From IMG/VR virus record IMGVR_UViG_3300042478_000574, positions 1-44,357 of that record: a DNA stretch of 44,357 nucleotides; one strand, 5' to 3'. Below the pieces are notes generated by a model that did not search any database, had not been told where the DNA came from, and saw nothing but the letters and a program-made list of their open reading frames with translations. This document shows positions 19,077 through 36,326 of this stretch, one piece after another. Position numbers and translations under genes: made by a program. The stretch's first letter is position 1, and each line of letters opens with the position of its first letter. Origin of the DNA: a virus.

Positions 19077-19752
19077 AGTTCTCTACTTGTAAGATCTTGG
19101 CTAGGCGTGCATTGAGAAGAGCTTCTTCCACACCAAGGTCTTTCTCTTTGAATGCGTTGACGACTGTCTCCCAGTTATCTCCGTGCTCATCCAGCAGAGC
19201 TACAGCTCTTTTGATTCCGATTCCCGGCACACCAGAGTATCCATCAGTCTGATCACCAGCCATAGTTTGAATAAGGTGCCATCGGTCACCCATCTCTTTT
19301 GTGATCTCAACCACTTCAGTGGATAGGTCAAAGAGTTCACCAGGGATCTGCCTCATGTCTTTATCAGGTGAACAAATGATGTTCCCTGGGTATTGCGTAG
19401 CATGAATACCAATAGCATCGTCTGCCTCTAGATATGGCATCACGATGACTTGGTTGTTCTCCTTTAGCTTGTTGATTACTCGACGGTATCCACAGGGCTT
19501 TTTCCTGTTACGGTGACCTTTGTAGCTGGCTGAGATAGCTTTGCGGAAATTAGCAGAATCAGAGAAGAAAAGAATAGAATCGTCGAAACAACCGATGTCA
19601 TTAGCTATGTTGTAAAGTTCCCGCTCGACCATGTCATAAGCCTCAGTGAATCGGCTTGTGACTGTGATTACGTCATCGCCCCAATCAATCTCTGTCTCGT
19701 TAGCAGCGCAGCATTTGTAGACAATGAAGTCTGCATCAATCAGCAGTGTCAT
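18979..19752 (-). CDS. 5'-3' exonuclease (T7 gp6-like, FEN/PIN fold)
   Basis: The product has 257 residues. Conserved acidic motifs of the flap/5' exonuclease family are present: LLIDADFIVYK at the start, YKGHRNRK, YLEADDAIG, ICSPDKDM and MAGDQTDGYSGVPGIG, the last being the helix-three-turn-helix. T7 gp6 degrades host DNA, removes primers and trims ends for recombination; the same role is likely. The tail is Ala/Ser-rich and low in complexity. It starts with an ATGA overlap on the preceding 47-residue gene. One copy of the repeated word AGTGGATAGGT (plus-strand reading) lies inside it at 19318. Confidence 0.93.
   Translation of the reverse strand: MTLLIDADFIVYKCCAANETEIDWGDDVITVTSRFTEAYDMVERELYNIANDIGCFDDSILFFSDSANFRKAISASYKGHRNRKKPCGYRRVINKLKENNQVIVMPYLEADDAIGIHATQYPGNIICSPDKDMRQIPGELFDLSTEVVEITKEMGDRWHLIQTMAGDQTDGYSGVPGIGIKRAVALLDEHGDNWETVVNAFKEKDLGVEEALLNARLAKILQVENYDFSEQAVRLWEPPASSSAGADDGAAVQATTD
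19318..19328 (-). promoter_or_regulatory. Repeated motif A copy (ACCTATCCACT)
   Basis: Exact copy of the 11-base word, here inside the exonuclease gene and about 240 bases ahead of the small gene starting at 19076. All copies in the window have the same orientation. Confidence 0.4.
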
Positions 19753-19892
19753 TTACCTTGCCCCACTCGAAGTTTTCGCCCGTGAGAAGGAAGGCTCCTT
19801 TTTCCATTGCCTTGATGGGTGTGCTTAAACTTTGCTCGTGATTGGAACTTCTTAAGTGCGAGCTGGGTTTTAGATTTGTTCTTGGGTGGCAT
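19749..19892 (-). CDS. 47-residue basic protein
   Basis: The ATG at 19892 opens a frame of 47 codons reading MPPKNKSKTQLALKKFQSRA and ending in a Lys/Arg-rich tail. Its stop overlaps the exonuclease start (ATGA) and its start overlaps the endonuclease VII-like gene by 23 bases. This tight packing between two genes and the strong basic bias support a real gene. It may bind nucleic acid; there is no recognisable domain. Confidence 0.6.
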   Translation of the reverse strand: MPPKNKSKTQLALKKFQSRAKFKHTHQGNGKRSLPSHGRKLRVGQGK

Positions 19893-20376
19893 TCGTATTT
19901 AATGAAAGGTATAGCGCAGCTTTAAGAATCCCTGCTAGGTTGTCTCCAAGCTTCCCTATCGATGTATTGCATTCTCCGCAGATCCATCCACGGAATGCGT
20001 TGGATTCGTGGCAGTGATCAACGACCAGCTTTGTTGTAGCTTTCCCACAACATTGACAAATGTCTGGCTTGTTTGGAGCGTCGATCTTGACTTGCTTTAG
20101 AACTGATTGATAGACACGACAGCATTGCTTGCATCGTGAGTCATGCCTATCTAGATCGCTTCTCTTCTTGTGAAACTCACTGTATGGTTTATCAACACCA
20201 CACAGCCTGCATTTCTTAGTGGACTTCGGCCCAGTTGAATCCTTGCTTAGCTTCTGCTGCAATTGGGACTCTAAGGTTGTAATGCTCTCCAGCAGACTGA
20301 GCTGCCCAGCACAAGGTAAATTTGAGATCCTGCGCATATGATTCTTCGCACTCAAACTGGAGCTCGTCATGGACAA
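19870..20376 (-). CDS. Endonuclease VII-like (HNH-type) nuclease
   Basis: The domain begins at KKCRLCGVDKPYSEFHKKRS and continues through DSRCKQCCRVYQ, ICQCCGKATTKLVVDHCHES and GWICGECNTSIGKLGDN. This is the recombination endonuclease VII fold: paired CxxC zinc ligands around a DHCH catalytic core. Such enzymes resolve branched DNA. The longest frame gives 168 residues from 20376, but its first 45 or so lie in the 3' end of the polymerase gene and look non-coding in this frame. The true start may be a TTG near 20255 or a restart at the polymerase stop (20216). It coexists with endonuclease I at 24430. Confidence 0.82.
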   Translation of the reverse strand: MSMTSSSLSAKNHMRRISNLPCAGQLSLLESITTLESQLQQKLSKDSTGPKSTKKCRLCGVDKPYSEFHKKRSDLDRHDSRCKQCCRVYQSVLKQVKIDAPNKPDICQCCGKATTKLVVDHCHESNAFRGWICGECNTSIGKLGDNLAGILKAALYLSLNTNATQEQI

Positions 20377-21487
20377 ACGCCAATTGATTTGCCTTGATGT
20401 TTGCCTCTTTCATGGTCTCGTTGGTGATCACCATCCAACGCTTTGCAATGCAGGCGGCTGACCCCTGGAGGAGGTAGTTCAGAGCTTTGTGAGGTACATC
20501 ACAAGCAATGCGGCGACCGTCAACAGCGCAGATGTGCTTATCGTTTTTCGCCTTACGCTTAACCGCCTCAACCAGTTTCTGCAAACCTGGAATTGCATCC
20601 ATGTATGCCTGGCGGATCTCCTTACCCTTTGCAATTGCTTTATCATCAGTGAGTTGTGGGTCGTAGCTAAGTCCGATCTTCTTGTCACCAGCACCGTACA
20701 GGAATGCATACGTAACTGTCTTCACTAAGCGTCTACTGATTCCGATCTTGTCTGCGTTCTCTTGGTGAATGTCCCCGTTGAGAAGAACATCTGCGTACCG
20801 GCCTCGATCATATCGAGCCAGGTAATGTCCAAGCATCCGCAGTTCAATACCTGCGAGGTCAGCACCAACCATGACAAGACCAGGGCTAGCTCGAAATAGC
20901 TTTCTAAATTCAAGTTCACTTGGCACTTGACCTAGGTTTGGCTTTCTGTGTGCGCATCTATTAGTGTTAGTTGAAACCGAACAGTGATGATGAATCCTGT
21001 TCTTAGTCACTAGCTTGAGCCATGCGTTGACTCCTTCAGTTAACATCCCAAGCTGCTTTGTCAATTCCAAGCAGCGAAAGAAGTCCAAGGCGATTGGGCT
21101 CCCAATGTCTTTGAGGACTACTTCGTCAATGACTGGCTTACCTTTATCTGTGAATTCAGTAGGCTTCCAGTCATAGAAGGTCTGCATGACCCAAGCAATG
21201 TGATCTCTGCTTGTAGGGTTCAGTTCTTTCAGACGAGTTGACTCACACCCTGCGAAATACCCTTGTGTTTTATTAGGTCGTTTTGGATTAAAGATTGTTC
21301 CTGCAACGAAAGGGTGCCTGTCTCGAAGTACTTGACTAAGACTTTCAAGCTCACGTCTGAGAGTTGATTCAAGTTCCCATGCAGCAGGCTCATCAAAGTA
21401 CCATCCATGTATCTCTTGATCTGTAAGTATCCTTGCTACCTCGTGCTCTAACGAGACCCAGTCAGGTAGGGTTGGAAATGTGTCCAT
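20216..21487 (-). CDS. Family A DNA polymerase, polymerase domain (split gene)
   Basis: From the ATG at 21487 the product has 423 residues. Motif A is GADLAGIELRMLGHY, motif B RRLVKTVTYAFLYGAG with Tyr at the position equivalent to T7 Tyr526 / E. coli Phe762, and motif C FVHDELQFEC, so the active site is intact. The 3'-5' exonuclease half is in a separate overlapping frame (21448-21972). The junction text suggests an ancestral single protein: the exonuclease frame reads into WTHFQPYLTGSR then stops, while this frame carries the expected continuation SLEHEVARILTDQE. This may be a natural split, a programmed -1 shift or a sequencing error. Confidence 0.93.
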   Translation of the reverse strand: MDTFPTLPDWVSLEHEVARILTDQEIHGWYFDEPAAWELESTLRRELESLSQVLRDRHPFVAGTIFNPKRPNKTQGYFAGCESTRLKELNPTSRDHIAWVMQTFYDWKPTEFTDKGKPVIDEVVLKDIGSPIALDFFRCLELTKQLGMLTEGVNAWLKLVTKNRIHHHCSVSTNTNRCAHRKPNLGQVPSELEFRKLFRASPGLVMVGADLAGIELRMLGHYLARYDRGRYADVLLNGDIHQENADKIGISRRLVKTVTYAFLYGAGDKKIGLSYDPQLTDDKAIAKGKEIRQAYMDAIPGLQKLVEAVKRKAKNDKHICAVDGRRIACDVPHKALNYLLQGSAACIAKRWMVITNETMKEANIKANQLAFVHDELQFECEESYAQDLKFTLCWAAQSAGEHYNLRVPIAAEAKQGFNWAEVH

Positions 21488-21972
21488 AGTTTTGTGGTAA
21501 CTTTTACGTCTTGAATCATGTAATCCTGCATCTCCTCTGACCAATTCCTCCAGTCAGTGGACTTGCTAAAGGATCCTTTGTACTCACCTAAGCGATAACC
21601 GTACGATTCAAGAGAGTGCCTGCCATACAGCTGCAATGGCATCTGCTTCAGCTTTCGTTTGTCTAGGTTGTCTAGATCAAGACGGTTGGCGAAGTACAAC
21701 CGGCTTAGGATCAGTGTGTCTATCACAAGTCCGCTAGGTGCAAACCATGGGTACAGTTTCTTGATTACAGGCAGGTCATAGCCAATGATGTTATGCCCAA
21801 TAATTGCAGAGGCGTCTTCAAGGAGCTGAACACCCTTTGTGATTGGCTGAGCATTACCCGTATCATTGAAGACAAGCGTCTCCTTGGTATCGAGATCGTA
21901 GATACCAATACAGTGGATACAGGTAACATCATTGTAGAGACCGTTTGTTTCGATATCGAAGACAAGGTTCAT
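21448..21972 (-). CDS. DNA polymerase, 3'-5' exonuclease domain (split gene)
   Basis: The product has 174 residues. ExoI is LVFDIETNGL, ExoII HNIIGYDLP and ExoIII YMIQDVKVT, so the DEDDy proofreading site looks complete. In T7 this domain is the N-terminal third of gp5. Here it ends at a TAG at 21448 and overlaps the polymerase reading frame by 40 bases, in the frame that a -1 shift would join. The start overlaps the preceding small gene with an ATGA. Two polypeptides could assemble to restore the holoenzyme. Confidence 0.9.
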   Translation of the reverse strand: MNLVFDIETNGLYNDVTCIHCIGIYDLDTKETLVFNDTGNAQPITKGVQLLEDASAIIGHNIIGYDLPVIKKLYPWFAPSGLVIDTLILSRLYFANRLDLDNLDKRKLKQMPLQLYGRHSLESYGYRLGEYKGSFSKSTDWRNWSEEMQDYMIQDVKVTTKLWTHFQPYLTGSR

Positions 21973-22205
21973 TGAATCTCCAGCTCGTTGGCGATTGCAA
22001 GGAGCACGGCGCGTTTGGCTGCTGCGTGAACATCACAGCATGAGTAATAGGTCAGCCGCTGGATTGGCACCACCTGATCCGCAGCAGCTCGCAGGGCGGC
22101 GGGGAGGGCGCCGTGCATCAAGTTTTCGGCTATGTGATCACCATGCAATGGGTACTTGCCGAAGGCATCCAGCACCGCCTGCGCAGCCGCTGAGAGGTCA
22201 GCCAT
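21969..22205 (-). CDS. Small MADLS-family protein, paralogue B
   Basis: The product has 78 residues: MADLSAAAQAVLDAFGKYPL, then ALPAALRAAADQVVP and a C-terminal helix VLLAIANELEIQ. It shares the opening (DLSxAAQ) and the ALRAAA block with the next gene upstream (22198-22482), so the two are tandem paralogues. The region is visibly richer in GC than its neighbours, which suggests recent gain. No function is recognised. Start and stop both overlap neighbours by a few bases. Confidence 0.68.
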   Translation of the reverse strand: MADLSAAAQAVLDAFGKYPLHGDHIAENLMHGALPAALRAAADQVVPIQRLTYYSCCDVHAAAKRAVLLAIANELEIQ

Positions 22206-22482
22206 TGGCTCCCTCCAGCTCGGCGGCTATGGCGAGAATCTCATTCATTGCCTTTGTGTATCCCCACTGTGCTGCAGTCCAGTAAGACAGTGTTCTTCCT
22301 CTTATTTGTTCCCATTGGTTAATGGTTGAAAATGGAACGTCTATCTGCTTATCTTTATCAATTGCAGCAGCTCGCAGGGCAGCAGCGATGGCAGGCAGGT
22401 AGTGCCAATCATCCGGCTTGCCACTGGCAGCTCGGTTGAAGTCCCAGAACACTTGTTGCGCGGCGGGGGAGAGGTCAGTCAT
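22198..22482 (-). CDS. Small MTDLS-family protein, paralogue A
   Basis: The product has 94 residues: MTDLSPAAQQVFWDFNRAAS, then IAAALRAAAIDKD and a C-terminal AMNEILAIAAELEGANG. It pairs with the following gene as a tandem duplicate. The middle (TINQWEQIRGRTLSYWTAAQ) is not shared, so the copies have diverged there. Proteins with this opening are, to my recollection, frequent in cyanobacterial phages and metagenomes without known function. Confidence 0.68.
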   Translation of the reverse strand: MTDLSPAAQQVFWDFNRAASGKPDDWHYLPAIAAALRAAAIDKDKQIDVPFSTINQWEQIRGRTLSYWTAAQWGYTKAMNEILAIAAELEGANG

Positions 22483-22634: not shown

Positions 22635-22686
22635 AGGCAGTCTTCCTTGAAGATTCCAAGGATCAGGGCAGTCAACCCATGGCTGG

Positions 22687-24273
22687 TCAGAAATCTGGGT
22701 TTGCGTCGAATTCTTCTTCGGCTTCACTTTCAATAAACTTACAAGTGGATAGGTCGTAGCTCAGCTTGCAAGCGACGCCAACTTCGCCTGAATACCGATT
22801 CTTAAGGACTCGCACTGTCGTGCTATTTCCCTCAGATGAGGACTGTTGGTTTCGCTCAAGTGCAATAACTCCGTCAGAGAGTTGTGCAATTGCTGCACTT
22901 CCCCTGAGCTGCCCAAGAGTGACCCGAGCTCCTTCTTCGTGATTCTTGTCATTAGCTGTACGTCTGAGGTGTGATACAAGGAACATCGCCACACCAGTCC
23001 GCTCAACCAACGACCGGAGCTTGGTCATGGTGGTGTCGATCATGCGCCTTTCATCACCATCAAGACCACTGAGCAGTATCGAGAGGTGATCTAGAAAGAT
23101 GACCCTCGCATCAAGACCTGCTGCCAGGTACTCAATTCTGTTGTAGATGAGATCAGGATCATAAGAACCAAAGCCATCGAAAAGAAAGAGATTCCAGTTA
23201 GCAAGAGTTGCTTGATAAGCTTCGGTGAGAGTAGATCTTTCATGTGTGCCCATGTAAAGGTTTTGACCAACTCCTACGGACATCAGTCCGAGAGCTGTGC
23301 GACGATTGGACTCTTCGAGAGCCAGATATCCAACTCGTTCTCCGGCACTGAGAACGTGAGTTGCCAACTCTCTACAGAATGAGGATTTGCCAATGCCACT
23401 CCCTGCAGTAATTGAAACAAGCTCCCCGTATCTGATCCCGTGAAATTTATCTTGTAAACCCCTGTATGGGTAGTCATGATCGGCAGGTGGTGTTGGTGTG
23501 GTTACTAGCTCTAAGAGAGAAGAGCCTTCAACGATCCCATCTGGACGATAAGGTTTTGCGTCCCAAATAGCGCGACAAACCGCTTCAGCGTCATTGGCAG
23601 AGAGGGCGTCAGACGCATCTTTGTAATCGCCTTGTAGGTGAGCAATCTTGACCTTGCCCGGTGGCAGTACGCTTGCTGCCTCCTCCGTTGCTTTACGGCC
23701 TGCGTCGTCATTGTCGAAGAACAGGACAATCTCCTCATAACCCTGAAGCCAGGGGAGAGCCCGTTGAATCGACTTCTTGGCCGCTGCGGCACCGCTAGGT
23801 AAAGAGACCATCGGCCACCCCGACATAGCTTCGTAACATGAAGCCGCATCGAGCTCGCCTTCTGTAATGACCACTCTCCGTCCAGTGGAGGGAAACAAAT
23901 GTTGTCCAAAGAGGGTTCCAGGGACTTCGCCTTCATAACTGAAATCTTTCTGCTTAGTCTTTACTTTGCAGCCTTTAATGATTCCAGTGCTGTCGAAATA
24001 ATAGAACCGTAGAATGTCTCCGTCGCGGTGGATTTTGTACTTTTGACAGGTCTTTTCTGAGATGCGTCTTTTGGGTAGACGCTCGGCATTTCCTTGGATT
24101 CTGACATTGGCCGACATTTTGTGATTGTGAACAACTTCTTCGGGGTTGTCGTAGGTGTTGCAGACATAGCAATAGGTGTGACCATCGGAGTACAACGAGT
24201 TGCCATCCGATGATCCACAATGCTCACAAGGCAAGTGCCTGACGAACTCGCTCGTGCAGTCGTTCGTACTCAT
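22687..24273 (-). CDS. DNA primase-helicase (T7 gp4-like)
   Basis: The product has 528 residues from the ATG at 24273, which has AAAGG upstream. An N-terminal zinc ribbon (PCEHCGSSDG with YCYVC) is followed by a TOPRIM domain (VITEGELDAAS, LFFDNDDAG) and a RecA-type helicase domain with Walker A AGSGIGKSS and Walker B VIFLDHLSIL, then VSHLRR and LRGSAAIAQLSDGV. T7 gp4 (566 residues) unwinds DNA as a hexamer and makes primers. The gene overlaps the 3' end of the small gene upstream by 50 bases. It carries one copy each of the two repeated words described elsewhere (22744 and 24121). Confidence 0.96.
   Translation of the reverse strand: MSTNDCTSEFVRHLPCEHCGSSDGNSLYSDGHTYCYVCNTYDNPEEVVHNHKMSANVRIQGNAERLPKRRISEKTCQKYKIHRDGDILRFYYFDSTGIIKGCKVKTKQKDFSYEGEVPGTLFGQHLFPSTGRRVVITEGELDAASCYEAMSGWPMVSLPSGAAAAKKSIQRALPWLQGYEEIVLFFDNDDAGRKATEEAASVLPPGKVKIAHLQGDYKDASDALSANDAEAVCRAIWDAKPYRPDGIVEGSSLLELVTTPTPPADHDYPYRGLQDKFHGIRYGELVSITAGSGIGKSSFCRELATHVLSAGERVGYLALEESNRRTALGLMSVGVGQNLYMGTHERSTLTEAYQATLANWNLFLFDGFGSYDPDLIYNRIEYLAAGLDARVIFLDHLSILLSGLDGDERRMIDTTMTKLRSLVERTGVAMFLVSHLRRTANDKNHEEGARVTLGQLRGSAAIAQLSDGVIALERNQQSSSEGNSTTVRVLKNRYSGEVGVACKLSYDLSTCKFIESEAEEEFDANPDF
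22744..22754 (-). promoter_or_regulatory. Repeated motif A copy (ACCTATCCACT)
   Basis: Exact copy inside the 3' end of the primase-helicase gene, about 110 bases ahead of the start at 22634. Confidence 0.45.
24121..24133 (-). promoter_or_regulatory. Repeated motif B copy (TGTTCACAATCAC)
   Basis: Exact 13-base copy within the primase-helicase gene, near its zinc ribbon coding part. It shares two further bases (GTTGTTCACAATCAC on the minus strand) with the copy in the integrase gene. Confidence 0.4.
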
Positions 24274-24783: not shown

Positions 24784-24787
24784 TCAC

Positions 24788-25363: not shown

Positions 25364-27703
25364 TTAGCAAAAGAAATAGGTGGATTCAATCACGGATTCC
25401 GGCTTGAGGTCTCCAATGATCGGCGGTTCAGATTGGGCTCCGATTTGATTAGCCCAGTCTTTGAGATAGTCATGCTCTGCAAACAAATACATGTAGGCTT
25501 CCCGTACCAAAGTGGATAGGATTCCCATGTCTGTAGCCCTGCAGAGCACAGAGTCATGAATCAACGCAATCGGTGCATTGAAACGAAGCGTTGCCAGGTG
25601 CAACAACGATGCATCAAGGCTGTGAATTAGATTGGGAGCAGTAGCATTCTTGTGGTGATTCAGATCAACTTGATCCGTATCCCCCTCAGCCACTTGCACC
25701 TGACAGCGACCGAGCAGTTGTAGCTCGATCCGTTTGATGTTGCGCTTCATCAGCTTCTGAGTGACGACAAACCCTGATGGTGTCGTCCACTCCAGCTCCT
25801 GGGCGCCGTTGTTAATCGATTCAGCCACCTCCCGTTCAATCCAATGCATGACTTGCATCGGACCCGGAACGATGAGGTTCATCGCATCTCTGACGGCATT
25901 GACGGTGGCAGTGAGATCGTCTTTTTCAATCTCGACGCCCTTCTCCTTCAACGCCTCACGGATGTAACTGCGATTGGAGAACGGTTTGGCGTTGTAAGGA
26001 ACGGTCATCACGGTGCGCTTGGTCACCTTGCGATCCATGTGTGGCTGCACCGTCTCTGGTACATGGGGCCTAGCAGCCTCTGCAATGACCTTGTAAGCGT
26101 CTTGGGGTCTATCACTAGGCAAGACGTTCACAAGGCGTGCTGTAGAGGCATCACGGGCCAATCCAGCGAGGATCTGCAGACCTGAACACGTGGCATCAGA
26201 AGCCACCATCAAGCCTGTGTGGTGACGATCGCGCTTGATCACACAGTGGTAGTACTCCTCACAAGCTGCCAGGAACTGCCAAGGTTCTTCGGCAGCTTCC
26301 CATTCGCTGATTGTTCCGATCGGGTCGGTAGCGATGCGGCTGATGAGTTGATGATTGTGAAGCGTCCACGACAGACGCTCATCCATCGTTGCTTTGTCGA
26401 GACCATAGGTGGTGGCGACCTGAAAGGCCACCCACTCCTCCGCATCGGAAGTCATGTACGACTCCTCATAAAAGCGCAGCAGACTCTTTCCAAAGTCTGT
26501 GTCTTGGGGAGTGAGGAAGGCTGGAATTGGATAAGCCCTACCCCTGTAGTCAAACGACCAAGGGACATAGAACTTCTCTCGATTCTTAAAGATCTCCACC
26601 GCATTCATGGTCATGCGGGTGCGGCAGGATTTACGAAACGCCTGAGCATTGAGGTTCATCACCTCAGCAGCCCGGCGCCTGTAGTCCTTGCGGCTGTCGA
26701 AATTCTCCGCTATGTCCACCGGTTTGGGCGGCAGCGGCATCTCGACAATGGGAAGAAACTTACCCACCGCCACCTGCTTCTCCAGCAAGGTCTCAGCGAC
26801 CTCGACAATGAAGGGGTTGAGGCAGTAGGCCACCTTCTGAATCTTGTTCAGAAAGGCGATTGGTGTTTCTCCCTGTATAGATGAGGGCTTGCCCCGCCGC
26901 ACCATGTGGTGCCCCCGCATCACCTCGTTCAGCAGGTAGCCACCGGCCCGGTCATTGGTCCAGTCGTTGGGCTCGACCAGCATCGGCCAGGCCAGGGGGC
27001 TGAACAGCTCCGCCTGGGCCATCACCTCATCCTTGACCTGTAGGAACTCAGGGGTGGGAACGACGTAGTTCTGCCGCTTCTTTCCCTCGTAGCGCATCTC
27101 GACCATGAACCAGTGGGAGACCTCGCAGATGCACTCCAGCAACCATCCCCCCAATTGGATCTTGTTGCGGCTGCCCCAGGTATCCCAGTGGGGCACGTCG
27201 TAACGGTTCATCAGGGTCTTGATCACCTTGACTTTCTGCTGGGTGCCGATGGCCCGGTGCCAGTAGTTCTCCTGCAGCACCCGCAGCAGGCCCGGCACGT
27301 TGGTCTCGTAGTGCCGCAGCATGCACTCGTCCTCGATCGCATGGCCGATGGCCTCGGTCACCTTGGGCACCTGGGCGTTGACCGGCTTGACGCTGAACAC
27401 CTTGTCGAACAGCACCTTGCAGGCAATGGCAGCAGCAGCTTCCGCTTCCAGGGGGGCCAGGAACTGGTGGATCTCTTTGAACGCTCTGCCGATGTGGCGT
27501 TGGTGGATGCGGTCATTGGTGGCGTTGATCCGTTCAGCCACGAGCGGGATCAGGGTCTCGACAGACGACACCCCATAGATCGAGGCGCTGGCATAGGAGC
27601 GCTCTTCCATCTGCCTGGTGTTCTCGTGCAGCTTTTGGAGCCCCTGCCTGATTTGCTCCCGTTCCAGTTGGATCTGCTCTTCGATTTGAGCGGGTGTGGG
27701 CAT
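25364..27703 (-). CDS. Single-subunit DNA-directed RNA polymerase (T7 gp1-like)
   Basis: From the ATG at 27703 the product has 779 residues (T7: 883). Active-site regions are intact: VASDATCSGLQILAGLARD around the first catalytic Asp (T7 Asp537), RKVTKRTVMTVPYNAK with the Lys and Tyr of motif B (T7 Lys631, Tyr639), and IALIHDSVLC with the second Asp (T7 Asp812). The C-terminus ends YFFC, replacing the T7 FAFA foot. It should transcribe the middle and late genes from phage promoters; the repeated words in this window are candidates. The leader contains CCACTTAG, also seen ahead of the terminase. An in-frame GTG lies six bases upstream. Confidence 0.97.
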   Translation of the reverse strand: MPTPAQIEEQIQLEREQIRQGLQKLHENTRQMEERSYASASIYGVSSVETLIPLVAERINATNDRIHQRHIGRAFKEIHQFLAPLEAEAAAAIACKVLFDKVFSVKPVNAQVPKVTEAIGHAIEDECMLRHYETNVPGLLRVLQENYWHRAIGTQQKVKVIKTLMNRYDVPHWDTWGSRNKIQLGGWLLECICEVSHWFMVEMRYEGKKRQNYVVPTPEFLQVKDEVMAQAELFSPLAWPMLVEPNDWTNDRAGGYLLNEVMRGHHMVRRGKPSSIQGETPIAFLNKIQKVAYCLNPFIVEVAETLLEKQVAVGKFLPIVEMPLPPKPVDIAENFDSRKDYRRRAAEVMNLNAQAFRKSCRTRMTMNAVEIFKNREKFYVPWSFDYRGRAYPIPAFLTPQDTDFGKSLLRFYEESYMTSDAEEWVAFQVATTYGLDKATMDERLSWTLHNHQLISRIATDPIGTISEWEAAEEPWQFLAACEEYYHCVIKRDRHHTGLMVASDATCSGLQILAGLARDASTARLVNVLPSDRPQDAYKVIAEAARPHVPETVQPHMDRKVTKRTVMTVPYNAKPFSNRSYIREALKEKGVEIEKDDLTATVNAVRDAMNLIVPGPMQVMHWIEREVAESINNGAQELEWTTPSGFVVTQKLMKRNIKRIELQLLGRCQVQVAEGDTDQVDLNHHKNATAPNLIHSLDASLLHLATLRFNAPIALIHDSVLCRATDMGILSTLVREAYMYLFAEHDYLKDWANQIGAQSEPPIIGDLKPESVIESTYFFC
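25511..25520 (-). promoter_or_regulatory. Repeated motif A copy, 10 of 11 bases (CCTATCCACT)
   Basis: Near-exact copy inside the 3' end of the RNA polymerase gene, about 150 bases ahead of the single-stranded DNA-binding protein start. T7 has a promoter (phi2.5) in the equivalent interval. Confidence 0.4.
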
Positions 27704-27773
27704 AAGCACTAAGTGGTTGAGAAACGTCGCTAGAACCGGTCCTTAGACCTGTACAAATGTGGACACGTTGCAA

Positions 27774-27804
27774 CAAAAAGAAGGCCACCCCTTTCGAGGT
27801 GACC
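27774..27804 (-). terminator. Intrinsic terminator downstream of integrase and attP
   Basis: On the minus strand GGTCACC pairs with GGTGGCC (one T-G pair) with a further inner CCT/AGG, and TTCTTTTTG follows. It would stop early transcription arriving from the MarR-integrase unit before RNA polymerase. Confidence 0.7.
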
Positions 27805-27835
27805 TGTCCACGTACGATTGCTTTTAGACGAGCGA

Positions 27836-27874
27836 ACCTGAAACTAGCGCGTCTACCAATTCCGCCACATCCGC
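27836..27874 (-). other. Phage attachment site (attP) matching the 5' part of tRNA-Leu
   Basis: The minus strand reads as the first 39 bases of a cyanobacterial tRNA-Leu: acceptor 5' strand GCGGATG, then GGCGGAATTGGTAGACGCG and CTAGTTTCAGGT up to the CAG anticodon loop. After the loop the match stops: the ACTAG that would close the anticodon stem is missing. It cannot be a functional tRNA. It lies 85 bases downstream of an intact integrase gene. P-SSP7 is known to carry a 42-bp tRNA-Leu match in the same place, which makes an attP the natural reading. Confidence 0.88.
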
Positions 27875-27958
27875 GTGGGGATTCCAGCGATTGGACTCGC
27901 TGAGATGGGCCGCTTTCAAGCGACGAATAGACCGTAGCACAGGGGGTTGTAGTCGCGC

Positions 27959-28816
27959 CTAGATGGCAGCCATGGCTTCGGTCAGGGCCGAATCGGTGGC
28001 CTTTGCATAACGTAACGTGGTTTCGATTCGCTTATGTCCCATCAGGGCCATCAGCGTGCGGATCGGTGTCCCCGCTTCGGCGTGCCAGGTGGCAAAGCTG
28101 TGCCGCAGGGTGTGGAACACGTAGTTCTCATCCTTTGGTATCAGTTTGTTAACTTTGCGAAACGCTCGCAAGAGTTGATCCTTGTCACGCCACTCATCCC
28201 CAAACAGGCGCACGTGGCTGCGTGATTGTGAACAACGCGCTTGCAGGATCGGGGCGATGCGCTCGTGAATCGGGATGGCACGAAAGTTGCCAGCCTTGGT
28301 TTTCACGACCTCTTCTCCACCGACCAGCACCCGGTTGCTGATCCAGTCCACGTCCTTGCAACGCAACTTCAGAATTTCACCTTGGCGCATGCCCGTGAAG
28401 GCTGCAAAGGTGATGATGTCGCGCAGATCCTCTCGCATGAATACGTCCGTGGACAAGTATGCGAGACGATCCACCTCCTCTTTGGTGTAGTAAAGAACCC
28501 GACCTTCGTTTTCCTTGCGCCGCCTGAATTTTGGTGGCGTCCCAATCAAACCATCAAACGCACAGTGGTTGAGCACCGTGCTGACAGCGCTGACGACACG
28601 GTTGATCGTGGCATCGCTCTTGCCTTCGTCCTCCAGTTCAATCGAGACCTGGGTGACGTTGGGTTGGTTGATCTTGGCAATGGGGAACGACGAACCTCGC
28701 AACCGGGTGAAGTGGTTGCAATTGATCATCGCTGTTTTTTTGCCATTGCCGTGGCGCCAGGTGTGACGTGTGGAGAAGGTGTAGTCCATGGCTGCACCCC
28801 ACGTTTTAATCTCCAT
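27959..28816 (-). CDS. int: Tyrosine-family site-specific integrase
   Basis: The product has 285 residues from the ATG at 28816. The catalytic pentad is readable: Arg in FTGMRQGEILKLR, Lys candidate after LVGGEEVVKTKAG, HTLRHSFATWH (His and Arg), GHKRIETTLRYAKAT (His and nucleophile Tyr). The N-terminal part is a small core-binding helical domain. It should recombine the phage tRNA-Leu attP downstream with a host tRNA-Leu. It overlaps the MarR-like gene by 11 bases, so regulator and integrase are co-translated. One copy of repeated motif B is inside the gene (28222). Confidence 0.95.
   Translation of the reverse strand: MEIKTWGAAMDYTFSTRHTWRHGNGKKTAMINCNHFTRLRGSSFPIAKINQPNVTQVSIELEDEGKSDATINRVVSAVSTVLNHCAFDGLIGTPPKFRRRKENEGRVLYYTKEEVDRLAYLSTDVFMREDLRDIITFAAFTGMRQGEILKLRCKDVDWISNRVLVGGEEVVKTKAGNFRAIPIHERIAPILQARCSQSRSHVRLFGDEWRDKDQLLRAFRKVNKLIPKDENYVFHTLRHSFATWHAEAGTPIRTLMALMGHKRIETTLRYAKATDSALTEAMAAI
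28222..28234 (-). promoter_or_regulatory. Repeated motif B copy (TGTTCACAATCAC)
   Basis: Exact 13-base copy inside the integrase gene, in the same orientation as all other copies. Confidence 0.4.
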
Positions 28817-29162
28817 ACAGAAGCTCCTCGATTTGTTTGACCATTTGCTCACCTTTGGGAGTGAGCTTAAGAAGTTGTCTGCGTCGGTTGGTTGGGTCCA
28901 CCTCCTTGGTGATCAGGTCCATGCCCGGCTTGTTCAGCCGGTGGATTTTGGAGAGCCAGTCCGTGTTGCGACTGCCGGAAGCGGTGCTGAAGTCGAGTTC
29001 TTCTTCCATCGCTTGTTTGTGGCAGTTGTTGTGACTCGCAACGTAGAGAAACGTTGCCATCACCTGGCCTGGCACCTCCCGGTCAAGCAACCGCATCAGT
29101 TGGATGACCTTGAGCAGCCGCTCGATCTGTGGGTTGGTGAGTTGATGGCGGAGTGGATCCAC
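28806..29162 (-). CDS. MarR-like winged-helix regulator
   Basis: The product has 118 residues from a GTG at 29162; a TAG shortly upstream in frame excludes a longer form. The winged-helix core is visible: VPGQVMATFLYVASHNNC as the first helices, DWLSKIHRLNKPGMDLITKE as the recognition part, DPTNRRRQLLKLTPKGEQMV as the wing (the DxRxxxLxLTxxG pattern of MarR). The C-terminal helix could form the dimer interface. It overlaps the integrase start, and three inverted repeats lie in its leader, so it may repress its own operon and control integration. MarR-like genes have been noted in other cyanopodoviruses, to my recollection. Confidence 0.82.
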   Translation of the reverse strand: MDPLRHQLTNPQIERLLKVIQLMRLLDREVPGQVMATFLYVASHNNCHKQAMEEELDFSTASGSRNTDWLSKIHRLNKPGMDLITKEVDPTNRRRQLLKLTPKGEQMVKQIEELLYGD

Positions 29163-30893: not shown

Positions 30894-31097
30894 TTAGTCT
30901 TGCTCCCATTCTTGACCTGTGGCCATGAAATAAAGATCTTCAAAGAAGAATGCAGGGAGAGCGCTATAACCCCAGGCAATGAGTGAGTCCTTTTGTTCTG
31001 TTGTTCCTTCTATTGCAATACGTTCTAGGTTTGAACGCGACATCTTTGATAGAACACTAGGAGACAAGGAAAGTAGATCAGTTTGAATGTTGATCAT
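30894..31097 (-). CDS. Small early hypothetical protein
   Basis: The product has 67 residues (MINIQTDLLSLSPSVLSKMS, RSNLERIAIEGTTEQKDSLI, AFFFEDLYFMATGQEWEQD). The leader AAGGACGCAGTCC gives a good ribosome binding site, and a copy of repeated motif B lies 17 bases before the ATG. It is the first gene after the terminator at 31138. Helical, acidic at the end. Function unknown. Confidence 0.7.
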   Translation of the reverse strand: MINIQTDLLSLSPSVLSKMSRSNLERIAIEGTTEQKDSLIAWGYSALPAFFFEDLYFMATGQEWEQD

Positions 31098-31113: not shown

Positions 31114-31126
31114 GTGATTGTGAACA
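31114..31126 (-). promoter_or_regulatory. Repeated motif B copy (TGTTCACAATCAC)
   Basis: Exact copy between the terminator at 31138 and the start at 31097, the expected place of a promoter for the next operon. Confidence 0.6.
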
Positions 31127-31168: not shown

Positions 31169-31339
31169 TTATGTGGTTACCTGGAAGGATGCAACCCAGT
31201 GAGGGATGCCCCGTTGTGCATACCTTTGATTGGCAGATGTTGCATAGGTTTGTGCATCTTTCTGATTTTTGAACGGTCCTGCAAAGTTGGCGTGCTGGAT
31301 TGTGAGCTGCGGTGCCTGTGAAAGAGAGACGAAAAACAT
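31169..31339 (-). CDS. Small early hypothetical protein
   Basis: The ATG at 31339 gives 56 residues: MFFVSLSQAPQLTIQHANFA, GPFKNQKDAQTYATSANQRY, ending WVASFQVTT. The composition looks coding (GPFKNQKDAQTYA resembles a SPOR-like beta-alpha unit, weakly). Another frame here gives a Cys-rich product that looks non-coding. The repeated motif A ends 18 bases before the ATG and the terminator follows the stop. Confidence 0.65.
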   Translation of the reverse strand: MFFVSLSQAPQLTIQHANFAGPFKNQKDAQTYATSANQRYAQRGIPHWVASFQVTT

Positions 31340-31356
31340 TGTTAAACACCTAAGTG

Positions 31357-31367
31357 AGTGGATAGGT
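31357..31367 (-). promoter_or_regulatory. Repeated motif A copy (ACCTATCCACT)
   Basis: Exact copy directly at the stop codon of the 247-residue gene and 18 bases before the next ATG. The longer string CCTAACCTATCCACTCACTT is shared with the copy at 32131. Confidence 0.6.
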
Positions 31368-32110
31368 TAGGCAGCGACTACGTACTTTGCACCGCTCCCA
31401 TGAGCAGCGACAAAAATATCAGTCCTAGCACCATCGCACAACTTGCAAGTTGAACATTGGGCCACACTATTTTCAACAGTTGCGGGGCATTGCTTGGCAT
31501 ACTTAACGATTGCATCTTTGCGAACAACAGTAAACGTCTTCCAGCCATGCGCTGTTGCGTCCAGATAATCTCTGAAGCCATCGCATGATGCCTGGAAAAT
31601 ACCCTTAAAAGGTTCGGCAAAGTCCTTGCGCCATTGGTGAGTATATCCAGTGTGTCCCTGAGTGTAACTGTTGAATAGGGTTACAACTTGCGGGTTGATC
31701 ACACTAGGATCACCATACGCACCCCAACGGATACGCTTACCCTTTAGTTCTGATTCGATGATTGAATAGAAAGAACCGTTAGATGGTAGGTCCTTGCAAC
31801 CTACATAACTTAGTTCCTGATACAATCCCCGCTTGTATGCCTTGTAAATACTGTTAGGACCTTGCCCAACGTTGACATAACAAGAACGTTTGCCGTTTGA
31901 TTGTTTACGGTGTGGGCAGTCGCCGCAGATCGTGGCATCCTTGCCAGTCTTGACAGCTTCCACAGGATTAATGTTCTCGCACAATATCCAGACCTGGGCC
32001 ATGTTGCCGGTCTTTCTATTGCTGCTCTTGAGAGTTAGGATTGCTACATAAGGTTGGCCATCAATTGGTGATAGGCCGCGATCAATAATGAAACCTTTAG
32101 GTTTGGCCAT
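31367..32110 (-). CDS. Early conserved protein with Cys motifs (possible DUF7227-type)
   Basis: The product has 247 residues and is the largest early gene. Features: ATICGDCPHRKQ with a later SCYVNVGQGPNSIYKAYKRG, RIRWGAYGDPSVINP, GHTGYTHQWRKD, FQASCDGFRDYL and CPATVENSVAQCSTCKLCDG. The C-terminal cysteines could bind zinc. Related proteins occur on phages and plasmids, to my recollection, without a known function; the family name given is from memory and uncertain. The segment GxYGDP...GYTHQW is the most diagnostic. A copy of motif A lies 20 bases ahead of its start. Confidence 0.78.
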   Translation of the reverse strand: MAKPKGFIIDRGLSPIDGQPYVAILTLKSSNRKTGNMAQVWILCENINPVEAVKTGKDATICGDCPHRKQSNGKRSCYVNVGQGPNSIYKAYKRGLYQELSYVGCKDLPSNGSFYSIIESELKGKRIRWGAYGDPSVINPQVVTLFNSYTQGHTGYTHQWRKDFAEPFKGIFQASCDGFRDYLDATAHGWKTFTVVRKDAIVKYAKQCPATVENSVAQCSTCKLCDGARTDIFVAAHGSGAKYVVAA

Positions 32111-32130: not shown

Positions 32131-32141
32131 AGTGGATAGGT
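32131..32141 (-). promoter_or_regulatory. Repeated motif A copy (ACCTATCCACT)
   Basis: Exact copy at the stop codon of the 76-residue gene and 20 bases ahead of the 247-residue gene start. Confidence 0.6.
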
Positions 32142-32371
32142 TAGGCAAACTCAAGAACTTCGACAGCGATAACAAACTCAGAGTCAATGCCAAAGAACTC
32201 AACGAGATCATCAGGATTGAGTGACTCTAAAAGTGATTCGTCTGCATCCTTGATGATCACCTGAAACGTGCCGTCATCCTGAGGAAATACTTCAGAGATG
32301 ATGCCATCCATTAAGTACTCATCAATCGGTGTGTCTTGATCAAGTGTCAGCCGCAGGTTGAGTGTGTCCAT
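32141..32371 (-). CDS. Small acidic early protein
   Basis: The product has 76 residues (MDTLNLRLTLDQDTPIDEYL, then VFPQDDGTFQVIIKDADESL and FFGIDSEFVIAVEVLEFA). It is strongly acidic and beta-rich. It is the first minus-strand gene after the 570-bp gene-free segment and so probably the first early gene transcribed. A copy of motif A lies 15 bases before its ATG. Function unknown. Confidence 0.72.
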   Translation of the reverse strand: MDTLNLRLTLDQDTPIDEYLMDGIISEVFPQDDGTFQVIIKDADESLLESLNPDDLVEFFGIDSEFVIAVEVLEFA

Positions 32372-32386: not shown

Positions 32387-32397
32387 AGTGGATAGGT
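32387..32397 (-). promoter_or_regulatory. Repeated motif A copy (ACCTATCCACT)
   Basis: Exact copy 15 bases ahead of the start at 32371, at the edge of the gene-free segment. CGCTTTTTAAACACA follows it. Confidence 0.6.
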
Positions 32398-32964
32398 AAA
32401 CTGTAGCTATTCAATTGTGCTGCGACCTTGTGATTAGGTGCGCGTGGGAGTGTATGGGCTCGGCTGATGGTGGCTAGCCATCGCGTCTGTTTAAAGCGAT
32501 CGCCATCGCCCGCCTGATCACCACACCATCGGGTGATCGCCGCCTGCCCCTATTCTGTTGTCGAGGTGCTTGCGGTCATCTTATCCATAGCAGTACTGAT
32601 ACGGCAATGGAGCAGTTACACTTCGTAAAGCGGCACACTGCAGCATTGATGCAGTACTGATACAGCATGGGAGAGTCGCTACAGATAGCAAGAGAATCAA
32701 GCGGGCTTGTTGCGAGTCATTCTCAATAAGGCAACGCTAGTATCCCTGCCGAATCGACCAAACCCCTAGTGTTTTCGCCCAGACTGTACATCTAGCGCGG
32801 CATCAGGCACCCCCACCACGGGGGAATTGCGGCCCTGCGATAGCGGTAATACCCTTCACAAATTTTTGTCGGATATTGAGCCATATCTGCATCACCCTGA
32901 GTCTTATACCTCTCACCTTGCTACGATATAGAGGTGGGCCAGCGAGGTTGCACCCTCCTGACCC
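32398..32964. other. Gene-free control or end segment with repeats
   Basis: No convincing gene in about 570 bases. It holds a 17-bp direct repeat GCAGTACTGATAC(G/A)GCA (32590 and 32651), an inverted repeat GATCACC / GGTGATC (about 32516-32538), one HIP1 octamer GCGATCGC (about 32496) as found widely in cyanobacterial genomes, a CCCCC / GGGGG hairpin (about 32811) and ACCTCT-N16-AGAGGT (32908-32935) just ahead of the plus-strand gene. It is the junction between rightward and leftward transcription and a candidate for the packaged genome ends or a replication origin. Confidence 0.6.
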
Positions 32965-33174
32965 GTGACCAGTCCAACCGTGATTGAACTGATGACCTCA
33001 TTTTCCTCCAAATACCAGCTCAAATCCGACGTTGTTCCCGTTATGACACGGAAACCCGTCAGAATCACAGCAACCATCACCTGGAAGACGTACCAAACGT
33101 TGCTCGACCGTAGCGATGTAGAAGGACGTAGTCTTAGCAACCTTGTCTCCTTCCTGATCGAACACAATCTCTAA
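32965..33174 (+). CDS. Ribbon-helix-helix (CopG/Arc-like) DNA-binding protein
   Basis: The only convincing plus-strand gene. From a GTG at 32965 it has 69 residues; ATG starts at 32992 and 33043 are alternatives. The C-terminal 43 residues form a ribbon-helix-helix domain: KPVRITATITWKTYQTLLDR, then SDVEGRSLSNLVSFLIEHNL. The strand, the first helix and the G-RSLSNLVSFLIE second helix fit the family. Such proteins act as dimeric repressors. It is transcribed away from the early genes across the gene-free segment and converges with the small gene at 33201. A regulator of early transcription or of lysogeny is the natural inference. Confidence 0.75.
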   Translation: MTSPTVIELMTSFSSKYQLKSDVVPVMTRKPVRITATITWKTYQTLLDRSDVEGRSLSNLVSFLIEHNL

Positions 33175-33200
33175 CCCCTCTACAATCGCCTACAAGGCTA

Positions 33201-33494
33201 TCAATTACTCTCCACCTTCTCCTTATACCAAGGAGCAGTTAAACGCATCTCAGGGAGGCTTACAGACGCCTCTGAAGGCCTCTCTGTATACACCGGAGTA
33301 ATCAAATCAGGGAGCGGTGGTTCAACAGCGACATACTCATTGATTGCTTGATCCACTTCACGTGTAACACGCACCTCAATGAACTTCTCTTCCAACCACT
33401 TCAACGCTCCCAACAACAAAAGATCCCACCACGGGATCCCACGTTTCCATTGTTGGTACAGTTGTTGAAACTCATTTAGTTTTAATTCCTTCAC
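33201..33494 (-). CDS. Small hypothetical protein near the genome end
   Basis: The product has 97 residues (MKELKLNEFQQLYQQWKRGI, PWWDLLLLGALKWLEEKFIE, then a Pro-rich acidic section VEPPLPDLITPVYTERPSE). A short amphipathic or membrane-associating helix is possible around WWDLLLLGALKWL. It overlaps the preceding gene by 23 bases and converges with the plus-strand regulator. Function unknown. Confidence 0.65.
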   Translation of the reverse strand: MKELKLNEFQQLYQQWKRGIPWWDLLLLGALKWLEEKFIEVRVTREVDQAINEYVAVEPPLPDLITPVYTERPSEASVSLPEMRLTAPWYKEKVESN

Positions 33495-33618
33495 CAGACC
33501 CTCCTAGATGCTCCTTTATGGCGTGTCTAATGTTTGCTGCAAGGAAAGTATTACCAACACGTTCTGCAACCTTTAGAGCGTCTTGTAGACGCCTTAGACG
33601 ATCATCATCATCAGACAT
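33472..33618 (-). CDS. Small hypothetical protein after thyX
   Basis: The ATG at 33618 gives 48 residues (MSDDDDRLRRLQDALKVAER, then NTFLAANIRHAIKEHLGG). It overlaps the thyX stop by eight bases, so translation is probably coupled. A longer frame to 33720 lies inside thyX and looks non-coding. The helical content suggests a small binding protein. Confidence 0.62.
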   Translation of the reverse strand: MSDDDDRLRRLQDALKVAERVGNTFLAANIRHAIKEHLGGSGEGIKTK

Positions 33619-34258
33619 TGTAATCCATATCCCACATTGCCTCACACACGTTCGGTATTTGCAAATAGAGAATATCCATGATCTGATCAGCAATAACAGC
33701 ATGCTCCTTCTGCGTACCATTACTGGTTCTCAGGTCACAGTAATGTAACCACGACCTAATAGACCCATTCATGTAGAGCTTGGTTGGAGATGCCAGGGGA
33801 AGCACGTCTCTTGCACACTCCTTAGCTACCCCAGCCTCTATCATCTCGTTGTAGAGGACGTAAGCCTTGGCATAGTGTCTGGCTATTTGTTTTTCAAACT
33901 CTCTAGCTACAGAGATATTCAGATCATCAATGCTGTTCTGTCTGTTCTTGGTGTCTTGCCTACGCAGTTCTGGTAGTTCAGGGGGAGTGTAGAGCTGGGC
34001 ATACCGCTGACTAAACTCTTGAAAGCTAAAGCTCCGATGCCGGAGGATCTGTGCTGCAATACTTCTTGTTGTCTCAATCTCTACACACATGTTCACCATT
34101 TCAAACGGTGACCAGTGTTTATGTTTGATGAGGTATTTAATCAGTTTAGCACTGGTCTCAGTGTTGGTTTGATTAGAAGGATTAGACACACGTGCCATAT
34201 AGGCAATGAGTTCTTCTGCTTTAGGAGTGATGTGGATAAGCTTGGCTGAATGACTCAT
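33611..34258 (-). CDS. thyX: Flavin-dependent thymidylate synthase
   Basis: The product has 215 residues. The ThyX signature is present: ILRHRSFSFQEFSQRY, fitting RHRxxSxxExSxRY. HWSPFEMVNMCVEIE and the C-terminal SIRSWLHYCDLRTSNGTQKE with AVIADQIM complete the fold. ThyX makes dTMP from dUMP using FAD and NADPH and methylenetetrahydrofolate. With ribonucleotide reductase and MazG it supports phage DNA synthesis. Many picocyanobacteria and their phages use ThyX. It is the first gene after the structured segment downstream of the terminase. Confidence 0.97.
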   Translation of the reverse strand: MSHSAKLIHITPKAEELIAYMARVSNPSNQTNTETSAKLIKYLIKHKHWSPFEMVNMCVEIETTRSIAAQILRHRSFSFQEFSQRYAQLYTPPELPELRRQDTKNRQNSIDDLNISVAREFEKQIARHYAKAYVLYNEMIEAGVAKECARDVLPLASPTKLYMNGSIRSWLHYCDLRTSNGTQKEHAVIADQIMDILYLQIPNVCEAMWDMDYNV

Positions 34259-34534
34259 GTAGAGGTGGGATTAGTAATCAGTTATACTCACTAAGTTATA
34301 CTGTTTAATACATGATGATCACTAGGGCCTCTTAATGGCCCACAGGATCATCCAGTATTACTTGCAGTACTCGTAGGATGGGGAGTTGTGAGTTTAGAAT
34401 GTACTTACAGAATGGTCGCTCCCGATGGTCGCCTGACCATTAGTAAAGGGGGAGAGAGTTAGCTTGATTGTCTTCCTCTCTCCCGGAGGGAGATGATTCC
34501 ACCCTTATCATTCCCCCCTATGATGAGGGCTTGG
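34259..34534. other. Structured gene-free segment between terminase and thyX
   Basis: About 275 bases. It holds a two-tier inverted repeat GATGATC-acta-GGGCC / GGCCC-acag-GATCATC (34314-34352), ATGGTCGC twice (34412, 34425) with ATGGTC-gcct-GACCAT (34425-34440), and GGGAGAGAG / CTCTCTCCC (34450-34484, 17-base loop), which with CCTTTACT after it on the minus strand may end terminase transcription. In T7 the terminal repeat begins just after the terminase gene, so a packaging end could lie here. Confidence 0.5.
34281..34308 (-). promoter_or_regulatory. Candidate host-type promoter upstream of thyX
   Basis: On the minus strand TTAAAC (34308-34303) is 16 bases from TATAAC (34286-34281), a fair sigma-70-like pair about 22 bases ahead of the start codon. 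The word AGTATAACT occurs twice, 14 bases apart (34280 and 34294). A host-polymerase promoter here would suit the first early gene. Confidence 0.45.
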
Positions 34535-36298
34535 TCAAACCCAAGTTGGGACGGGGGATTTGGAGGAACCGCGTGCTTGGCGTCTTTGCTCCAAGTTGAA
34601 GCCCAAAACGAGGTGGTTGGTCGCCTGTTGAGGGTCGTCTAGGAAGGCTTGGAGCATGTCGTTCCAGTCGTCCCGTTTGCGTTGGTTGACGACCTCTTGA
34701 GCTGAGATACCCATGGCGTCGGTGAAGTACTTGACACCTTGGGCTAGGGAGTCAAGGCGGTCATCGTGTTTGATGGCAAACTTCTCCCGGCACATGCGAC
34801 TCATCTGATAGAAGAGCATGTAGAGGAGTCGTTTCTCTGGGGCTTCGTCTTTGTTGGAGGCGTAGTCCCACTCCACCACCTTCCGGTCAATGATCAAGCG
34901 GTGTTGATTCATGATCGGTTCAAGGGCATCGATGATGCGGTCTTCCTTTCGGACGGTGGCTCTGACTTCTTCTACTGCGATGTTTTGTTTGGTCTGGTGC
35001 AGGTGCTTCTTGAACAGCTCTGCAACGATGCCATCACCAAAGTTAGTTTCGATGAGCAGCTTGGTGACGTTGTACTTCTTACAGCCTCTGAGGATGTCTA
35101 GAAGGGTGGTGTCGCTGTACCCGTCGTGGTAAGCGCGAATCTCATGGACGTAAAGGAAGCCGTTCTTCTGGCTTATGAACGTCGCTGCTGTTTCGTCTGT
35201 GCCTCGACCGCTCGGATCCACTGAGCAGATCGTTTCATCGTAGCTACTCCACTCTCCTTGAAGCTGCATTGGGGAGTAGAAATAATCACCCGGTAAGCCA
35301 ACCGTAGGCAGATCCTTGAGACAATTACGAGGATCAGAGCACCAGACAACAGAATCCGGCGCTTGAGTCGGGTTAACAGCGGTAATGATGAGGTCTTGGA
35401 ATTTAAGGGGGAATTTCTCGGCATCACTAAGGCTCGTATCAAGCATGAACTGCAACATGAAGTTGCTACGACCCATTGATGCTTCCCGCTCCAGCAGGTC
35501 ATCAGCAGTGAAGCGGTCTGGGTCGGTTACGTCCCACGACTCTGCTCCGTTGTCGATGTCCTCTTGCAGTTGAGGAGCAATCAAGCCTTCATAAGCTGAG
35601 AGCTTGCGGGGGTAACGAGCAGGCCAGACAAAGGGTCGGTAGTTGCGTTCAGCTAGTTTGCGGTAGACAGTGAAGGTTGTCTGTGGTGTCCCCAGGTACA
35701 TGATGCGTGAATCCGGTTTAGGGGTCAGGATGGATTCCGCTTCTGTACAGAGCTGCAGGAGCTTTTCCCGCATCATCTCGGTCATGGAGTTACCAGGAAC
35801 CTCGATGTCATCGAGAATCATCAGGTCAGCACGTGAACCGGTGAGCTGACCGGTGATACCCACGGATTTGACAGAGGGGGCCTGGTGAGGTGAGCAGTTG
35901 ACATCAAAGGAGATTCGAGACCAACGGGCATCGTCGCTCTTGGGTCTGAGGTGGATGAGCCAGGGGGTTTCGATGATCAGCTTCTGCAAGAAGATCGACA
36001 TGTTGTCTGCCCGTTCCTTCGAGGCAGAGATGATCATGATCTTCTTCTCTGGATTGTTGAACAGGGTCCACAGAACAAAGGCACCAGTAATCCAGGATTT
36101 ACCTACGCCTCGAAAGGCTTGGATCTGTAGTCGTTTAGGACCGTGCTGCAAGTAGTCCGCAATGGCGTACTGTGCACGGGTGGGGGAGGGAAGGTCGAGC
36201 TGCTGCCATAAGGCTTGTAGAAAGATCTTAAAGTCCTTCTGAAGGGACTCCAAAACGGAATCCCCTCCAGGAGCCGCTCTGCGGCGTTTTACTGGCAT
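34535..36298 (-). CDS. Terminase large subunit (T7 gp19-like)
   Basis: The product has 587 residues, the same as T7 gp19 (586). Walker A is QAFRGVGKSWITG, Walker B DLMILDDIEVPG, coupling motif region YLGTPQT, and the nuclease domain begins SVDPSGRGTDETAA with later ETNFGDG and KHDDRLDSLAQGV acidic residues. It is the packaging motor and end-cutting nuclease. A motif A variant (TTTATCCACTTAGGT) lies 20 bases ahead of the ATG. The C-terminal tail is Arg/Gln-rich, as in other family members that dock on the portal. Confidence 0.97.
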   Translation of the reverse strand: MPVKRRRAAPGGDSVLESLQKDFKIFLQALWQQLDLPSPTRAQYAIADYLQHGPKRLQIQAFRGVGKSWITGAFVLWTLFNNPEKKIMIISASKERADNMSIFLQKLIIETPWLIHLRPKSDDARWSRISFDVNCSPHQAPSVKSVGITGQLTGSRADLMILDDIEVPGNSMTEMMREKLLQLCTEAESILTPKPDSRIMYLGTPQTTFTVYRKLAERNYRPFVWPARYPRKLSAYEGLIAPQLQEDIDNGAESWDVTDPDRFTADDLLEREASMGRSNFMLQFMLDTSLSDAEKFPLKFQDLIITAVNPTQAPDSVVWCSDPRNCLKDLPTVGLPGDYFYSPMQLQGEWSSYDETICSVDPSGRGTDETAATFISQKNGFLYVHEIRAYHDGYSDTTLLDILRGCKKYNVTKLLIETNFGDGIVAELFKKHLHQTKQNIAVEEVRATVRKEDRIIDALEPIMNQHRLIIDRKVVEWDYASNKDEAPEKRLLYMLFYQMSRMCREKFAIKHDDRLDSLAQGVKYFTDAMGISAQEVVNQRKRDDWNDMLQAFLDDPQQATNHLVLGFNLEQRRQARGSSKSPVPTWV

Positions 36299-36318
36299 TG
36301 ATGATAGAATATACCTAA

Positions 36319-36326
36319 GTGGATAA
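36319..36326 (-). promoter_or_regulatory. Motif A variant ahead of terminase (TATCCACT)
   Basis: The eight-base core of motif A, followed by TAGGTATATT, lies 20 bases ahead of the terminase start. TATCCACT...TTAGGT is also seen ahead of the early gene at 31339. The match is partial. Confidence 0.35.

Follow-up and report, generated by a model that had tools for sequence, protein, structure and literature searches.

The window, by which we mean the whole 44,357-base stretch analyzed here (IMG/VR virus record IMGVR_UViG_3300042478_000574), is a T7-like podovirus of cyanobacteria with an identical end repeat of 127 bp. Nearly all of its genes are carried on the minus strand, and they include those for a single-subunit RNA polymerase (RNAP), an integrase, a MarR-like regulator, psbA, ribonucleotide reductase, and a T7-type virion block. 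The RNAP shares 59-72% identity with the enzymes of S-RIP2, S-CBP1, S-TIP37, and P-SSP7, and 38% with that of Syn5. The element in question is a G-poor word, ACCTATCCACT, with the core TATCCAC(T) and often the form TATCCACTnAGGTA; several genes carry it on the sense strand of their 5' leaders, as a rule 7-24 nt upstream of the start codon. The word is enriched in leaders, is fixed in strand, and recurs in related phages before both homologous and non-homologous genes, between flanks that have diverged; the promoter of the phage RNAP is a different sequence. The copies found in the window are as follows.

32387-32397, minus strand: leader copy of ACCTATCCACT, 15 nt ahead of the ATG at 32371
32131-32141, minus strand: leader copy of ACCTATCCACT, 20 nt ahead of the ATG at 32110, overlapping the stop codon of the upstream gene
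31357-31367, minus strand: leader copy of ACCTATCCACT, 17 nt ahead of the ATG at 31339 (alternative start, GTG at 31349)
36318-36325, minus strand: leader copy of TATCCACT, 19 nt ahead of the ATG at 36298 of the terminase large subunit gene (terL); extended form TATCCACTTAGGTA
22744-22754, minus strand: ACCTATCCACT at the primase/helicase gene's 3' end; the TTG of an overlapping gene of 84 amino acids (aa; 22733-22479) follows after about 11 nt
19318-19328, minus strand: ACCTATCCACT within the exonuclease gene, encoding DLST; absent from every relative listed
25511-25521, minus strand: TCCTATCCACT, a 10-of-11 copy within the RNAP gene (ILST; LSTLVRE)
21912-21919, minus strand: TATCCACT within the DNA polymerase gene, coding for a conserved IHC
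42128-42135, minus strand: TATCCACT within the coding sequence of a repetitive tail-fibre gene

The five exact copies of ACCTATCCACT listed in the original prediction (19318, 22744, 31357, 32131, and 32387) and the 10-of-11 copy at 25511 were all recovered on the minus strand, as was the 8-mer core copy by the terminase gene, which is located at 36318-36325; two more 8-mer copies, at 21912 and 42128, had escaped that list. The distances given to the start codons at 32371, 32110, 31339, and 36298 are also correct. The four copies placed ahead of starts (31357, 32131, 32387, and 36318) do lie in intergenic leaders, while those at 19318, 22744, and 25511 are inside open reading frames (ORFs). The virion block, for which no copy had been noted, is not entirely without the word: the copy at 42128 is within the tail-fibre gene, and that at 36318 precedes the terminase gene. 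The word is enriched over shuffled sequence: the core TATCCACT occurs nine times, always on the minus strand, which is the coding strand, against 1.06 copies expected from dinucleotide shuffles, none of 100 of which reached nine. Four copies are intergenic against 0.065 expected, with none on the opposite strand. The copies at 31357 and 32131 have TGCCTAACCTATCCACTCACTT in common. In L049, the same gene as that starting at 32110 retains the leader word between diverged flanks, and orthologues of the terL leader site exist in L046, L047, L049, L122-L124, L126, and L131. The copies at 19318 and 25511 are coding coincidences, and at the latter no synonymous constraint was detected across 60 RNAPs. 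The copy at 22744 is of ambiguous status and is possibly a leader copy.

The word was picked after the fact, and independent evidence therefore weighs more. Such evidence comes from P-SSP7, whose RNAP is only 59% identical to that of the window: its leaders hold five copies of TATCCACT against 0.033 expected and none on the opposite strand, including those ahead of the RNAP and MarR genes, and all six of the core copies in the P-SSP7 genome are on the coding strand. Among relatives in IMG/VR, the word is retained, with diverged flanks, before terL, the 247-aa gene, and the gene after that for DNA polymerase. Together with the RNAP gene of P-SSP7, these are non-homologous genes. Whole-genome enumeration of words on the coding strand was tried but was swamped by codon bias, and later tests were therefore confined to leaders. 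Gene starts in the IMG/VR contigs were predicted by a simple script that reproduced both ends of 49 of the 56 genes when checked on P-SSP7. In an unbiased ranking of 7-mers by proximity to starts, across 1,845 non-redundant upstream windows of the clade, TATCCAC came first, with 23 occurrences in the near band against one in the far band, and it is thus a genuine start-associated element; TCACAAT and ATCCACT (the latter in fifth place) were also in the top five, and the same windows are depleted of G at -25 to -16. The non-redundant leader sites numbered 26, and 16 of them lie 7-24 nt from the start codon, where 8.8 were expected (P 0.0008, for a band set after the distances had been seen). 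When the exact 15-mer CCTATCCACTCACTT was searched in IMG/VR, it was found mostly in unrelated contigs and in one near copy of the window.

These results bear on two of the alternatives. One is that the repeat is a product of chance together with codon and composition bias, as might be suggested by the post hoc choice of the word and by the coding coincidences among the listed copies, at least two in number (19318 and 25511). The independent enrichment in the leaders of P-SSP7 and the top rank in the clade-wide test make that highly improbable. The other takes the word for a linker at gene boundaries that does little by itself and that has been spread as early gene cassettes recombined. This is conceivable because an identical 22-nt repeat covering the word flanks the 247-aa gene (at the copies at 31357 and 32131), and copies often overlap the upstream stop codon. 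Simple duplication does not, however, predict the retention of the core while both flanks diverge in other phages, and we regard the linker as distinctly unlikely.

That the word might be the promoter of the phage's own single-subunit RNAP was the first interpretation offered in the original prediction, and its multiple copies in one orientation ahead of genes, as well as a slight likeness of TATCCACTTAGG to CTCACTATAGG of T7, would fit with it. The RNAP of phage KP34, moreover, uses two unrelated promoters (PMC6834552). The promoter of Syn5 RNAP, ATTGGGCACCCGTAA, has been established by experiment (PMC3950665), and it occurs exactly twice in the Syn5 genome, once in the RNAP gene at 4929 and once 6 nt after terL at 44797; it differs from the leader word of Syn5, TCACCATCAC. 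Genome by genome, the sequence following terL was therefore compared with the corresponding part of the RNAP gene. Each of the 14 genomes has its own repeat at both positions; in 12 of them it is exact over 12-21 nt, while S-B28 and DSL-LC07 have 9-nt cores with mismatches. The pair in the window is an exact CAAGCCCTCATC at 26880-26891 and 34522-34533, and the features concerned are these.

25364-27709, minus strand: T7-like single-subunit RNAP gene (PHROG 414, E 5e-223)
34535-36298, minus strand: terL (PHROG 38, E 4e-117)
26872-26891, minus strand: predicted phage RNAP promoter, copy 1, in the RNAP gene, CAAGCCCTCATCTATACAGG, from the repeat comparison
34514-34533, minus strand: copy 2 of the predicted phage RNAP promoter, immediately following terL, CAAGCCCTCATCATAGGGGG, from the repeat comparison

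The corresponding repeats are AACCCCTACGTATACAGGGG in P-SSP7, GTAACCACGGGTGTATACAGG in S-CBP4, and CGAGGTGGTCCCCGTATA in S-CBP3, and two IMG/VR contigs that hold both sites carry GATCAGGGGTGTATACAGG twice (L046) and GATCCCACCCGTATACAGGG twice (L049). Promoters were predicted at the loci of the window, L027-L039, L046, and L049, with the RNAP coordinates of S-CBP3 and NATL1A-7 taken from tblastn. Matches within a genome's own pair were far better than those of cross-genome pairs (none of 5000 permutations). Across 60 non-redundant RNAP genes, the lowest synonymous diversity was found at residues 266-298, a stretch that includes the predicted promoter site; ATA stands at codon 278 in 53 of 53, and CAG at codon 279 in 58 of 60. 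In addition, the variable half of the promoter covaries with the specificity loop of the RNAP after removal of overall RNAP divergence (partial r 0.30, P 0.0005), a correlation exceeding those of all 65 other 29-residue windows of the enzyme (maximum 0.25), and once the loop is known the remainder of the RNAP adds nothing (-0.04). The synonymous constraint at the site in the RNAP gene and the covariation with the loop are what one would expect of a polymerase-promoter pair. Most likely, therefore, the phage RNAP starts from this separate two-copy promoter. The word behaves in the opposite way, given that L041, L046, L049, and the window have identical TATCCACT despite differing specificity loops and promoters. 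Since the positions of the proven promoter are occupied by another repeat, which covaries with the polymerase while the word stays constant, it is extremely improbable that the word is the promoter of the phage RNAP. The part of the original interpretation that survives is that of a one-orientation cis element ahead of genes, which P-SSP7 and the IMG/VR relatives bear out. For P-SSP7, a recent screen gave the promoter as AAAATTCTTCAAGTTTACAA (PMC11475235), which differs from the pair found here. According to the text of that report, 18 of the 26 enzymes screened were inactive, including all 16 with low similarity to T7 in the DNA-binding domain, and prediction of the cognate promoter is stated to be the limiting step.

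The second interpretation in the original prediction, a regulator site, can be put more precisely: the word would be a double-stranded DNA site, such as an activator box or a stoperator-like operator, at which a phage or host regulator acts on host RNAP. Non-palindromic sites in one orientation at gene boundaries are what stoperators and activator boxes look like, and two candidate regulators appear to be encoded in the window.

28806-29162: transcriptional regulator (PHROG 9665)
32965-33174, plus strand: opposite-strand ORF close to what is probably the genome end; its product, possibly a regulator, weakly matches the ribbon-helix-helix family PF07878 (19.3 bits, below the cut-off of 26)

An alignment of 30 sites also showed a weak preference for A at +14 (22 of 30), part of a possible TAnnnT that hints at a -10-like element as in a host promoter of sigma-70 type, and for T at +18 (14 of 30), both of which are missing at several sites. 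Many sites, however, lack a -10-like element where one would plausibly be expected, and at several no more than 10 nt separate the word from the start codon, which is too short for a promoter with a normal leader. The pMarR protein of P-SSP7 gave several footprints on host rne DNA, with no consensus defined in the passages of the main text consulted (PMC9692554). A regulator site thus seems possible, though rather unlikely.

The simplest reading is that the word belongs to the mRNA leader, because it is on the sense strand, close to starts, G-poor, present even in leaders a few bases long, and independent of the polymerase. We propose, with about even confidence, that ACCTATCCACT represents a start-associated sequence of T7-like cyanophages, a word of the translation-initiation region whose mechanism would be translational. 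The word may act in mRNA by keeping the ribosome landing site unpaired, or it might instead bind a host or phage RNA-binding factor, for example ribosomal protein S1, and in either case the translation of the genes that bear it would be raised or coordinated. Pairing with the 3' end of 16S rRNA was considered and rejected, as neither AGTGGATA nor AGTGGAT occurs in the Synechococcus loci searched. Several observations weigh against the proposal of an mRNA leader word. A Synechococcus 16S rRNA offered no complementarity longer than chance. The spacing is loose because 10 of the 26 leader sites fall outside the band of 7-24 nt, and the word in the terL leader is replaceable because only about half of the close relatives have TATCCACT there, the rest having ACCACC or other sequence. 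Lastly, the five in-gene copies in the window exceed the 0.64 expected in codon-shuffled genes, an excess that a pure leader role leaves unexplained and that was calculated for a word chosen post hoc. In L121, no substitute word was repeated through the genome in place of the word; such a substitution would have suggested a coevolving reader.

More broadly, T7-like cyanophages might use two codes, one being the polymerase promoter, which coevolves with the specificity loop and is present as one type per genome in two copies, and the other a set of slowly changing, G-poor start-associated words (TATCCACT and TCACMATCAC) that an RNA-binding factor of host or phage would recognize in mRNA, thereby coordinating the translation of takeover genes. 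We offer this scheme tentatively and consider it doubtful as a whole. Because gene timing in T7-like cyanophages is poorly known outside Syn5, the separation of two signals that look alike in raw sequence is of use. It supplies exact promoter predictions for the window phage, S-CBP1, S-CBP3, S-CBP4, S-RIP1, S-RIP2, S-SBP1, S-SRP01, S-TIP37, P-SSP7, and NATL1A-7, and weaker ones for S-B28 and DSL-LC07, and it delimits a start-associated word that can be tested directly for a part in translation or regulation.

Other leader words were also encountered. One of them, TTCACAATCAC, recurs across cyanophage leaders, often followed by AAGGACGCA, and G-poor words particular to other cyanophages include TCACCATCAC in Syn5 (L038) and CACCTATGCCCTAA in S-SRP01.

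31114-31124, minus strand: second leader word, TTCACAATCAC, preceding the gene that starts at 31097

Several neighboring features of the window deserve mention. The minus-strand ORF at 18777-19076 has a match to NblA, a phycobilisome degradation protein, that is barely below the cut-off (PF04485 in Pfam, 24.2 bits, cut-off 25). A tRNA-Leu-like fragment, GTGGCGGAATTGGTAGACGCGC, is found at 27710-27958 (minus strand) between the integrase and RNAP genes, an arrangement also seen in P-SSP7, and is likely a phage attachment site. Upstream of the capsid gene and adjoining a tRNA gene, positions 11559-11595 (minus strand) match the abiF RNA family over its full length (RF03085, 47.8 bits, cut-off 37), the core pattern of which is common in IMG/VR; no gene for an AbiF protein was noticed among the ORFs of the window, and for that reason the RNA might be a decoy against an abortive-infection system. 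Of the two short hairpins AGCCGTCTAGACGGTGGGATAGACCAC at 11424-11450 (minus strand), P-SSP7 has an identical copy in the corresponding position ahead of the capsid gene, and S-CBP1 has a glutamine-II riboswitch match upstream of its capsid gene (L027, 20690-20773).

Comparison with known systems helps to place the word. The stoperators of cluster A mycobacteriophages are asymmetric gene-boundary sites, mainly in one orientation, that are bound by a known immunity repressor. The cyanophage word resembles them in asymmetry, in its position at gene boundaries, and in orientation, and it differs in that the regulators are here candidates by sequence only. The strong promoter of KP34 RNAP is TAATGTTACAGGAGTA (PMC6834552), which is unrelated to TATCCACT; its TTACAGGAG is similar to one half, TATACAGGG, of our predicted promoters. 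The Syn5 promoter (PMC3950665) is likewise a sense-strand cis element of a T7-like cyanophage, but it has only two copies at fixed positions, where the window has its CAAGCCCTCATC pair, which is dissimilar to ACCTATCCACT. The closest parallel in anatomy is with the Start-Associated Sequences (SAS) of cluster K mycobacteriophages, 5'-GGGATAGGAGCCC, the mechanism of which is unknown (PMC3203893). Both are short asymmetric words, almost all in one orientation, immediately upstream of gene starts, and in both cases related phages retain the word ahead of genes belonging to different families. The sequences, on the other hand, are unrelated: SAS contains a Shine-Dalgarno-like GGAG, while TATCCACT is without it and is located further upstream, and the cyanophage word has fewer copies per genome. 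No extended inverted repeat turned up at the cyanophage word, although no search was aimed at one. Since ACCTATCCACT does not come within two mismatches of GGGATAGGAGCCC, and the two have their anatomy but not their sequence in common, the cyanophage word is, judged on these features, SAS-like rather than a member of the cluster K SAS.

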